From: Rhodanobacter thiooxydans
Lineage (GTDB): Bacteria > Pseudomonadota > Gammaproteobacteria > Xanthomonadales > Rhodanobacteraceae
DNA length: 64,000 nucleotides
Direction of reading: 5' to 3'
Assembly: GCF_021545845.1 (NCBI RefSeq)
Contig: NZ_CP088923.1
Span: forward strand, 806,001-870,000
In this document: positions 2,068-57,037 of the stretch, one piece after another
Position numbering within the stretch: position 1 is the first letter of the stretch
Layout: the number at the start of each line of letters is the position of its first letter
Position numbers and translations under genes: made by a program
Notes under the pieces: generated by a model
Database searches by the model: none
What the model saw: only the letters and a program-made list of their open reading frames with translations
What the model was told of the DNA's origin: nothing

Positions 2068-2187
2068 GGGATAGGGAATGGGGAATAGGAAATCGGAAGG
2101 GCGCTCTTCCGCCAGCTTGAAGGGGACCGCGGGCGCCACCGCTTTTGCTCTTGCCTATCCGATTCTCGATTCCCTATTCCCGGCTCC
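2068..2187. repeat. Inverted heptad-repeat element (GGGAATA/GGGATAG type)
   Basis: Two short arrays of degenerate 7-bp units face each other about 55 bp apart. The left array (2068-2096) reads GGGATAG, GGAATGG, GGAATAG; the right array (2151-2187) is the same type in reverse complement. The right array overlaps the 3' end of trmL, so the last residues of TrmL (GNRESRIG) are repeat-encoded. A second element of the same build lies at 42634-42764. Confidence 0.8.
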
Positions 2188-2640
2188 AACGAAGCCGAGT
2201 TGGCGCCACGCTTCGTAGACGGCCACGGCGACGGTGTTTGACAGATTCAGGCTGCGACTGTCCGGACACATCGGCAGGCGCAGGCGCCGTTCGGCGGGAA
2301 TGGATTCCAGCACCTCACCCGGCAGGCCGGCGGTTTCGCAGCCGAACAGCAGCGCGTCGCCGTCGGCGAAGCGGGCGTCGACGTGGGCGACGTGGCCGCG
2401 GGTGCTGAAGGCGAACACCCGCGGCGCGCCGATCGCGTCGAGGCAGCTGGCCAGGTCGTCGTACACCGCGACGCTGGCGTACTCGTGGTAGTCCAGCCCG
2501 GCGCGGCGCAGGCGGGCGTCGTCGAGCGCGAAACCGAGCGGGCGGATGAGGTGCAGCGCCGCGCCGGTATTCGCGCACAGGCGAATCACGTTGCCGGTAT
2601 TCGGCGGGATCTCGGGGCGGAACAGGATGACGTGCAGCAT
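2155..2640 (-). CDS. trmL: TrmL, tRNA (cytidine/uridine-34-2'-O)-methyltransferase
   Basis: SPOUT-family enzyme that 2'-O-methylates the wobble base of tRNA-Leu isoacceptors using S-adenosylmethionine. All three family motifs are visible: the N-terminal [15 protein letters not shown], the FGCETAGLP loop near residue 100, and the C-terminal knot segment [15 protein letters not shown]. At 161 residues it is slightly longer than the usual 154-157, because the final GNRESRIG and TAG stop are encoded by the adjoining heptad repeat. ATG at 2640 gives the conserved [12 protein letters not shown] start; the longer upstream frame is not family-like. Confidence 0.95.
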
Positions 2641-2680
2641 CCGGCCATTATCGCGTGTGCGCGCACGTTTCGTCGCAGGC

Positions 2681-2884
2681 TCAGCCGTCGACCGGCGGGC
2701 AGACCACGCCGTCCGCCGGCAACGCGCAGCTAGCCGGCGCAGCCAGCAGGATCGCTGCGACGCTGCCGTGGGTGGTGAGCTGCGCCGCATCCGGGGCGAT
2801 CGTCATCATCGCGCCGAGGATCAGGCCGCAGACCGCCAGGCAGGCGATGAACAGGCCGCGCAACATCAAGGTCTCGAATTTCAT
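2681..2884 (-). CDS. Small single-helix membrane protein, unknown function
   Basis: A 67-residue product with a hydrophobic helix ([17 protein letters not shown]) that could be a signal or membrane anchor, followed by a short tail with two cysteines ([10 protein letters not shown]). I do not recognise a family. ATG at 2884 is preferred over ATG at 2890 because GGAG then sits 8 bases upstream. It points away from the M16 protease gene, and the 3011-3046 palindromes lie between the two starts, so it may share regulation with that gene. Coding potential is plausible but rests mainly on length, start site and the hydrophobic helix. Confidence 0.5.
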
Positions 2885-3010
2885 GGTCATGGCTCCGATG
2901 AATGAAGGGAAGTCCTTGCCAAGCCGTTGGTGCAATCCCTGTGCCAGGTCGCGTTACGTGTACAAGTTGTTGATTTGGCGCGGTTCAACAACCCGGTGGC
3001 GCGGGTGCAG

Positions 3011-3046
3011 GATTGTCCGCGGACAATCGTCCGCCCGCCGGCGGAC
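3011..3046. promoter_or_regulatory. Tandem GTCCGC/GCGGAC palindromes (putative operator)
   Basis: An 18-bp perfect palindrome, GATTGTCCGCGGACAATC (3011-3028), is followed at once by a second dyad in which GTCCGC and GCGGAC are separated by 6 bases (3029-3046). The shared half-site suggests one regulator binding both. The site is about 100 bp upstream of the M16 protease start and about 130 bp upstream of the divergent small gene. The regulator is unknown. Confidence 0.5.
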
Positions 3047-56300: not shown

Positions 56301-56417
56301 GAGCAGCTGAAGGAGCGCAAGGCCGAACTGGCTGCGGCCGTGCTCGAAGGCGGCGGCAGCCGCGAGAGGCTCAGCTTCGACGAGGGCGACCTGGACGCGC
56401 TGCTGGCGCCGGACTGA
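53400..56417 (+). CDS. SNF2-family DEAD-like helicase (HepA/RapA-like ATPase)
   Basis: A 1005-residue SWI2/SNF2 ATPase. The helicase core begins near residue 540: [15 protein letters not shown] (Q-like), [10 protein letters not shown] (motif I, about 563-572), [11 protein letters not shown] (Ia), [10 protein letters not shown] (motif II, DEAQ), [19 protein letters not shown] (III) and the second RecA domain with [11 protein letters not shown] and [30 protein letters not shown] (V/VI region). The N-terminal 530 residues are not assigned; no SWIM cysteines seen. Role (DNA repair, transcription recycling or defence) is not settled. Confidence 0.9.
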   Translation: [1005 protein letters not shown]

Positions 56418-56424
56418 GCCTGCC

Positions 56425-56745
56425 TCAGGACGATGGCCGCAGACGCGTGCGCAGCAGCGCGTCCACCGCCTGCTGCCACTGCGGCGAGCCGGGTTGCGAT
56501 TGCGGCGCTTCCTGGCCCAGTTTGGCCTGCACCGCCCGGTTCCATGCATCCGAGCCGTGGCTGGGGCCGTGGCCGTCGTCGGCGATCTGCAGCGAGCGGT
56601 CGACCCACGCATACCATTCGGGCGAGCCCAGTGCCGCGTTGGCCGGTGCGGATGGGCCGGCGGTGTCGGATGGCGGCGGTGCCGGCGAGGGCGAACAGGC
56701 GGCAAGCAGCAGGGCAAGCGGCAGGCTGGCGACGAGGCGGCGCAT
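56425..56745 (-). CDS. Small lipoprotein, unknown function
   Basis: A 106-residue lipoprotein with lipobox LLLAAC (Cys near residue 17), a Pro/Ala-rich linker, then a short helical domain with two SPEWYAWVDRSLQ and SPQWQQAVDALLRTR-like repeats. No known family is recognised. Convergent with the SNF2 gene, 8 bases apart. Repeat copy C lies about 100 bases upstream. The 289-bp gap 56746-57034 is mostly that repeat; the remainder should hold its promoter. Confidence 0.7.
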   Translation of the reverse strand: MRRLVASLPLALLLAACSPSPAPPPSDTAGPSAPANAALGSPEWYAWVDRSLQIADDGHGPSHGSDAWNRAVQAKLGQEAPQSQPGSPQWQQAVDALLRTRLRPSS

Positions 56746-56841
56746 GGAAGGCTCCGTGGACAGTTGGCCACGAGCCTACCGCGGGCATGCGCAGCGGTGA
56801 TTAAGTTTTCATGAGGCGCGGCGGCGCGATTCAGCGGGGTG

Positions 56842-57037
56842 GCTCAGAGCTTGTGAAGAAAACCACTTCCTGTGGTTTTCTTCAGTCGCGAGTCCGGTAC
56901 ACGCCCGGACATGACGCAGTCACTGCGTGACTGTGTCATGTCCGGCCATCGGGCAACCGCTCCTGCGTTGCCTCAACTCGGGCATCCATGCCCTCGCCGT
57001 GGCCGGCCTGAGAGGTTGAAAAAATCACAACCTCTCA
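56842..57037. repeat. Five-hairpin repeat, copy C
   Basis: A 196-bp copy in the same plus-strand orientation as copy B: H1 (57037-57009) starts with the HAD phosphatase stop TGA. H4 differs from copy A at two places: one A-T pair is C-G here (both sides changed) and one A-T is G-T (wobble), so pairing is kept. The outer end begins GCTCAGAGCTTGTGAAG as in copy A. Confidence 0.9.

Follow-up and report, generated by a model that had tools for sequence, protein, structure and literature searches.

A five-hairpin, MITE-like repeat of Rhodanobacter thiooxydans is best read as an element inserted at native CTGAG stop codons

When the stop codon of a gene lies within a repeat, was it supplied by the repeat, or was it there before the repeat arrived? 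This question is raised by a 64,000-nt stretch of the Rhodanobacter thiooxydans genome (positions 806001-870000 of contig 1 of the 4.20-Mb genome, labeled G000; hereafter the window, meaning the whole stretch of DNA that was analysed), for which a preliminary description had claimed that nine genes take their stop codon from an adjoining repeat. Reading the window sequence directly, we found all nine stop codons inside or at the base of a repeat. Five are on the minus strand (trmL TAG 2155-2157, GNAT TAG 12109-12111, ubiE TGA 30878-30880, rpmG TGA 51039-51041 and HAD TGA 57035-57037) and four on the plus strand (pssA TAG 11989-11991, eamA TGA 29441-29443, AI-2E permease TAG 39110-39112 and FAD oxidoreductase TAG 42639-42641); the names pssA, GNAT, AI-2E, FAD, trmL and rpmG are those of the preliminary description, the Pfam test having been limited to EamA, UbiE and HAD. 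The repeats had been sorted into four types, namely a five-hairpin repeat (eamA, ubiE and HAD), repetitive extragenic palindromic (REP) sequences with GTAG at their foot (pssA, GNAT and AI-2E), heptad arrays (trmL and FAD) and a palindrome (rpmG). This grouping stands, except that the GTAG class comprises two families (GTAGGMGC.. at pssA and AI-2E, GTAGGGCGGACACCGCCC at GNAT), which makes five types. At least three distinct causes underlie the nine cases, and the notion that the stop is taken from the repeat is wrong at most sites of the five-hairpin repeat, where element-free relatives have the same stop.

In the three five-hairpin copies of the window the TGA indeed has the same place, as the left CTGA of each carries the stop of its host gene. 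Copy 1 (29440-29655, plus strand) begins with a CTGA made up of the last base of the final codon and the TGA of eamA and ends with a CTGA at 29652-29655; its host open reading frame (ORF) belongs to EamA according to Pfam, and relatives were only partly alignable at this site. Copy 2 (30630-30881, minus strand) bears the ubiE stop in its left CTGA, has a decayed right end (CTGG) and follows an ORF that Pfam assigns to UbiE over residues 44-273 of 274. Copy 3 (56844-57038, minus strand) bears the HAD stop in its left CTGA and has its right CTGA at 56844-56847. We consider it probable that this repeat is a small non-autonomous element, resembling a miniature inverted-repeat transposable element (MITE), which was inserted at a native CTGAG and did not replace the stop. 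The element would recognize CTGAG in one orientation and insert just after the TGA, leaving a short TGA-containing repeat at its far end; where the CTGAG lies at a gene end (NNC TGA G), the gene would keep its own stop and C-terminus, and the hairpin would begin at the stop codon.

The evidence that carries this interpretation comes from empty sites in relatives (genomes are designated by G numbers and loci by L numbers). Among 28 empty loci (20 sites in two relatives 90-97.5% identical, not all independent), the gene stops at the same codon in 25, the stop is TGA in 25, and it stands in CTGA in 22 and in CTGAG in 15. The corresponding background, among 293 complete stops, is 111 for CTGA (P = 1.4e-5) and 45 for CTGAG (P = 3e-6), and this enrichment at empty sites implies that the target was present before insertion. 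At L010, L019, L030, L037, L017 and L022, a single CTGA in the relative corresponds to two around the element in R. thiooxydans, and such target duplication together with empty sites is what is expected of a MITE. Likewise, in six element-free genomes the position of the stop is unchanged at 27 of 30 loci (eight sites), with L143, whose offset of -87 is probably due to a gapped alignment, counted as a miss. As for the window copies, the ubiE site is empty with ttcTGA in G042 and G005 and with TAG in G032, and bears an element of another length in G043, while the HAD site is empty with gacTGA in G043, G032 and G005. Insertion immediately at 3' ends, as the preliminary description had proposed, is thus borne out for the five-hairpin repeat, whereas its further suggestion that the original stop was replaced fails at most sites of this repeat. 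At the L010 stop, the element is present in the genome studied here and in R. spathiphylli (G042; L181/L257), and the nearer relatives G043 and G032 are empty, a pattern that could reflect either repeated insertion at one stop or loss.

To see how far the association with stops extends, a genome-wide count had been suggested. Our census was the union of a pattern search for the first hairpin (up to three mismatches; 34 rows, 32 places) and a genome search covering the same end, which together found 41 left ends (L009-L038, L113 and L321-L330); since the genome search scored only 40 candidates and decayed copies may be missing, 41 is the number of left ends found. A looser scan of all loci yielded mainly false places and did not enter the census. 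Of these, 35 (85%) have their start precisely on the in-frame TGA that closes a coding frame; coding status was judged with a hexamer model for which 304 kb of the same genome served as training set and which was also applied to the other genomes. The six left ends off stops are L012, which sits 10 nt past a TGA resembling a gene stop, L013, L021, L035, L023, which is the second of a tandem pair with L035, and L038, which has TGC. The host frames are ordinary genes, with Pfam families in 23 of 25 tested, including UbiE, UbiA, PdxJ, NadC-type, aminotransferase class V, EamA, methyl-accepting chemotaxis protein, LacI regulator and CoA transferase. For comparison we used a null sample of 304 kb (made up of the window and twelve 20-kb stretches, with genes called by our own gene finder and a few element copies included), whose 293 complete stops comprised 232 TGA, 39 TAG and 22 TAA. 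CTGAG occurred 45 times at stops, 41 times elsewhere outside genes and 206 times within coding sequence. If insertions into coding sequence are lost, 52% of copies would be expected at stops, and the share of 35 of 41 copies differs from 45 of 86 extragenic CTGAG (Fisher P = 2e-4; binomial P = 9e-6 with the proportion fixed), so the left ends are not placed at random. The association is real and strong, and insertion at native CTGAG stops accounts for it best: with CTGAG being a frequent context of stop codons in this genome and intragenic insertions being removed by selection, most copies would end up at stops. Target sequence and selection against gene disruption explain much of the pattern, not all of it, and an approximately 1.6-fold excess remains.

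The structure of the repeat also fits a mobile element. It is about 140-290 nt long, has no coding capacity and occurs in many dispersed copies, as MITEs do, and its five hairpins form a core of approximately 147 nt in other genomes. All five stems are supported by covariation, with compensatory changes at 23 of 50 predicted pairs (34 sequences). The left end follows the consensus X-CTGA-GAG[GT]YTG, with a CTGAG that is almost constant among copies, and the right end CACA[AG]GC-N-CTGA; both carry short, imperfect terminal inverted repeats of about GAG[GC]YTGTGA (by eye), again as in MITEs. Orientation is strict, since none of the 41 left ends has the reversed target CTCA (40 have TGA and L038 has TGC). 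In the 74 distinct copies that have NTGA at each end, the base N of the right end equals X, the base before the left CTGA, in 30 (14.6 expected), and where N is not T it does so in 22 of 28 (permutation expectation 11.2), so a target duplication is seen in most non-T copies. In 64 of the 74, the right NTGA is followed by G. The repeat starts with CTGAG and hence differs from GTAG REPs, whose short palindrome has GTAG at its foot. A known RNA family was rejected as its identity: Rfam gave no match in the window, and the sole match for three loci searched with E values up to 1 was weak, scoring well under the gathering threshold. In this genome, the core is often interrupted by an additional repeated module, which corresponds to query 46-108 of the copy at 29440. 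The module, GGCATGGATGCC..GAGTTGAGGCAACGCAGGAGCGGTTGCC, is a repeat in its own right: besides query 46-108 of 29440-29652 it is found at 63480-63531 of the window, and it occurs within the five-hairpin element, within a larger palindromic repeat (63002-63682) and by itself in other genomes.

The distribution of the element spans the genus and extends to further genera of its family, although the counts that follow include orthologous (inherited) insertions and are not all independent. Within the genus, a window copy was matched in 30 of 45 genomes (its own included), with 0 to tens of matches per genome. Among the matches listed, 35 of the 44 long-form copies fetched are at coding stops (a contig-edge left end in G043 and one in G013 were left out), as are 11 of the 13 core-form copies assessed; a 14th, L127, which is the same place as L269, is off a stop by eye. 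In the family search, the element core had matches in 57 of 233 genomes, which belong to 11 of 26 genera; some of these matches are short pieces. Loci from this search with a left end are at coding stops in 22 of 29 cases (8/8 in other genera, 13/20 elsewhere in the genus and 1/1 in this genome), about eight of the 29 being the same places as core-form loci. A pattern search added two loci, both at stops: L240, which comes from an uncultured gammaproteobacterium, and L253, whose sequence is the same as that of the genus locus L280. A covariance model found more distant full-length matches in metagenome-assembled genomes (MAGs) labeled Halothiobacillus, Dokdonella and others. Two distant relatives, L231 and L237 (from Rhodanobacteraceae and Lysobacteraceae MAGs), carry open frames of about 600 codons that end at a stop codon within the first hairpin.

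What might have moved the element? An IS5-family insertion sequence (IS), assigned by Pfam and the annotation of relatives, has four copies in the R. thiooxydans genome (pattern with at most one mismatch), and all four lie in the far-end TGA of element copies. These copies, at 933570-934785 (L332), 3473561-3474776 (L335), 3701026-3702241 (L337) and 3823612-3824827 (L339) of contig 1, have the same orientation and TGA on both sides, and since the host element copies differ in length and in their left half, the IS copies appear to have been inserted separately. This IS seems to target five-hairpin elements. Its position at the far-end TGA suggests an IS5-type mobilizer, which would probably be a DDE transposase of the IS5 family with C-TNA-G as its target. 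The ends of the element and of the IS are partially similar (approximately 11 of 16 positions by eye) and share the same target, but are not identical. Six plasmid relatives of the IS have C-TNA-G around 3-bp repeats of TTA, TAA or TCA (by eye), and a decayed relative in G031 stands directly behind the CTGA that ends a 474-codon frame. G004 also has a near match to a single end of the IS, which by its appearance is not an IS end.

Several observations weigh against this interpretation, and we take them together with the alternatives that they favor. With regard to the mobilizer, no autonomous element with five-hairpin ends was found. The IS5-family IS occurs in 2 of 230 genomes of the family (E 1e-60), as against 57 of 233 for the element, and is thus too rare to have spread all copies. 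C-TNA-G being palindromic, the strict single orientation needs a further cause. Moreover, N is a fixed T in 46 of the 74 copies whatever X, no duplication is visible at the extra base in these T copies, and the duplication may be 3, 4 or 5 bp long. The right CTGA could possibly be carried along, as in IS200/IS605-type elements. The element might then have been mobilized by a single-strand HUH (Y1) transposase of the IS200/IS605 or REP-associated tyrosine transposase (RAYT) type, which we regard as possible, albeit not probable. Such an enzyme would account for the covarying end hairpins, the fixed motif 5' of the left end, the orientation-specific insertion without a reversed copy among 41, the right CTGA seen in five of six copies whose left end is GTGA, TTGA or ATGA, and the independence of T-class right ends from the target. 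It fits poorly with the agreement of N and X at non-T right ends, which indicates a real duplication, and with ends that are inverted repeats. The local Y1 transposases were rejected as partners, since none of the seven Y1 loci of the R. thiooxydans genome has element ends within approximately 1.5 kb.

A second group of difficulties concerns the choice of site. The extragenic null predicts 52% of copies at stops where 85% were observed, so some of the excess is unexplained, and one could imagine that the stop codon itself serves as the integration address, an in-frame NNC-TGA-G being preferred over any CTGAG, through target recognition or its coupling to termination or transcript ends, as a safe-site strategy common to an IS5-type lineage; we find this unlikely. 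Slightly more doubtful still is an active steering of insertion toward stops or the 3' ends of genes, beyond CTGAG, by translation termination, transcript ends or exposed DNA. The excess and the eight of eight stop-associated loci in other genera speak for such targeting. The null, however, keeps promoter regions, where insertions are also selected against, so selection alone may close the gap between 52% and 85%. In addition, the share at stops is lower in the genus outside this genome (35/44 and 13/20), and these 9 of 44 and 7 of 20 copies off stops also count against insertion at native CTGAG stops, as do the distant covariance-model relatives, which often have their left end off a stop (L233 and L252 are at one).

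That the element supplies the stop, i.e., that it inserts near 3' ends, brings its own CTGA and replaces the native stop along with some residues, was the idea of the preliminary description and is now very improbable. In its favor, the left CTGAG is nearly constant, heptads do behave in this way, and the orthologue ends in TAG or TAA in some relatives, which would be expected after divergence or, less likely, reflect overwriting by the element. Yet the stop stands at the same position in 25 of the 28 empty loci of close relatives and in 27 of the 30 from element-free genomes, the CTGA pre-exists in 22 of 28, and C-termini such as that of UbiE (..AYKF) are unchanged in empty relatives. Finally, that the repeats are immobile 3' untranslated region (UTR) or terminator modules kept near stops by selection, as their conserved structure and 3' position might suggest, can be dismissed as an account of their origin (a secondary function is possible), given their presence and absence at orthologous sites between genomes 90-97.5% identical, the tandem copy (L035/L023), the 0 to tens of matches per genome within one genus, and a T run that lies in the first loop and not behind the stem.

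Insertion at a native CTGAG thus remains our preferred reading of the five-hairpin repeat; the other repeats of the window tell different stories. At pssA, a GTAG REP (GTAGGCGCGCGCTCGCGGGCGAT, 11988-12010, plus strand) holds the TAG stop at 11989-11991; at the GNAT gene, a REP of the second family (GTAGGGCGGACACCGCCC, 12093-12112, minus strand) holds the TAG at 12109-12111; and at the AI-2E permease gene, an inverted pair of GTAGGAGC REPs (39109-39182, plus strand) holds the TAG at 39110-39112. All three repeats have GTAG at the palindrome foot. Genome matches to GTAGGAGC give a TAG stop in 6 of 14 extragenic cases, with 3 more matches in predicted genes, and those to GTAGGG[CT][GA]G in 2 of 7, with 7 more in predicted genes; the pssA copy, GTAGGCGC, falls outside the GTAGGAGC pattern. 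The orthologue comparison that had been proposed alongside the genome-wide count shows the C-terminus to be kept at the GTAG REP genes, as at most five-hairpin genes: in five of five relatives for AI-2E and pssA and in four of five for GNAT (one codon differs in G005). At the AI-2E gene, G032 has G-TAG without an evident REP, G042 TAA and G005 TGA; G004, initially taken as REP-free, was withdrawn from that role, as its G-TAG is followed by a different short palindrome (by eye). The REP type found at the pssA stop varies between species; G004 has no REP there and stops with TGA, which is also its stop at GNAT. Insertion immediately at the 3' end is plausible here too, and GTAG REPs may work similarly at G-TAG, either inserting at a pre-existing GTAG or bringing it. 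The TAG stops at these REPs are known biology, in keeping with one published account, according to which GTAG REPs often supply the stop codon of the ORFs beside them (PMC3733652). A RAYT-like Y1 gene (L227, near position 1493161 of contig 1) has GTAGGAGCGCACCCTG REPs within its 3.3-kb locus and is a possible partner of the AI-2E REPs.

The heptads are the case in which the preliminary description comes closest to the mark, as judged from the gene ends of relatives. The array GGGAATAGGGAATCGAGAATCGGATAG (2155-2186, minus strand) forms the last codons and the stop of trmL, whose end lies 12-15 nt beyond that in four of the five relatives; G043, one of the four, also has heptads, and the fifth relative gave no readable end. 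The array GGGAATAGGGAGTAGGGAATAG (42633-42656, plus strand) provides the stop of the FAD oxidoreductase gene and replaces its tail, which runs 21 nt further in four other relatives and is lacking in both this genome and G043. Of the repeat types in the window, heptads alone replace the stop together with the tail, and they change C-termini. By a loose pattern they give a stop at 4 of 10 extragenic matches, with 8 more in predicted genes, numbers too small to judge. In G042, heptad-like sequence lies behind the own stop of the FAD gene. Inverted heptad arrays (42626-42659 and 42733-42766, 91% complementary) flank the gap between the FAD oxidoreductase gene and the next gene, and in G032 (L317) the trmL stop is in a GTAG REP and not in heptads, so that different repeats stand at the same gene end. 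At rpmG, the palindrome (50991-51041, minus strand) has the TGA at 51039-51041 as its first stem triplet. This stop had been thought to come from the palindrome, but it is native: the same final Lys codon precedes the stop, be it TGA, TAG or TAA, in five of five relatives.

These results suggest that a mobile element with a short target matching a common stop context can spread without harm to its host, as a gene that receives it keeps its stop and its protein and the change is limited to the 3' UTR. Filled and empty 3' ends form a natural matched set for measuring the effect that a stop-codon hairpin may have on the mRNA and its expression. The results also call for caution, since repeats supplying stops differ in origin, and only some, here the heptads, change proteins.

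How does the five-hairpin element compare with known systems? MITEs derived from IS200/IS605 (palindrome-associated transposable elements, PATEs) have terminal hairpins, a fixed left motif and a single orientation, and are not known to duplicate their target. The five-hairpin element is like them in hairpins, left motif and orientation, and would differ in the duplication seen in 22 of 28 non-T copies, though not at the extra base of T copies. Other bacterial MITEs, such as ERIC/RU, Correia and RUP, are likewise short, non-coding mobile hairpins in many copies, and use TA-type targets. For RU-1, one account mentions a fusion that removed the normal stop (PMC2759123), and the portions of the literature on ERIC/RU, Correia and RUP that we consulted describe no tie to stop codons (PMC10969869, PMC2229807). 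In the literature searched, in which subscription journals are thinly covered, we found no stop-codon-targeting elements except GTAG REPs (PMC3733652). GTAG REPs are palindromic repeats at gene 3' ends, and the pssA, GNAT and AI-2E cases are of the same kind; the five-hairpin element differs from them in its length of approximately 140-290 nt, its initial CTGA, its five covarying stems and the repetition of the target at its far end. As to IS5-family elements of the C-TNA-G type (ISPsy19-like), their ends start with GAG, they have TNA repeats, and the C-TNA-G target is found in six plasmid copies, while one IS5-family IS of R. thiooxydans uses the far-end TGA of the five-hairpin element. Compared with this family, the five-hairpin element is without a transposase, stands at TGA in one orientation and shows partial similarity at its ends.

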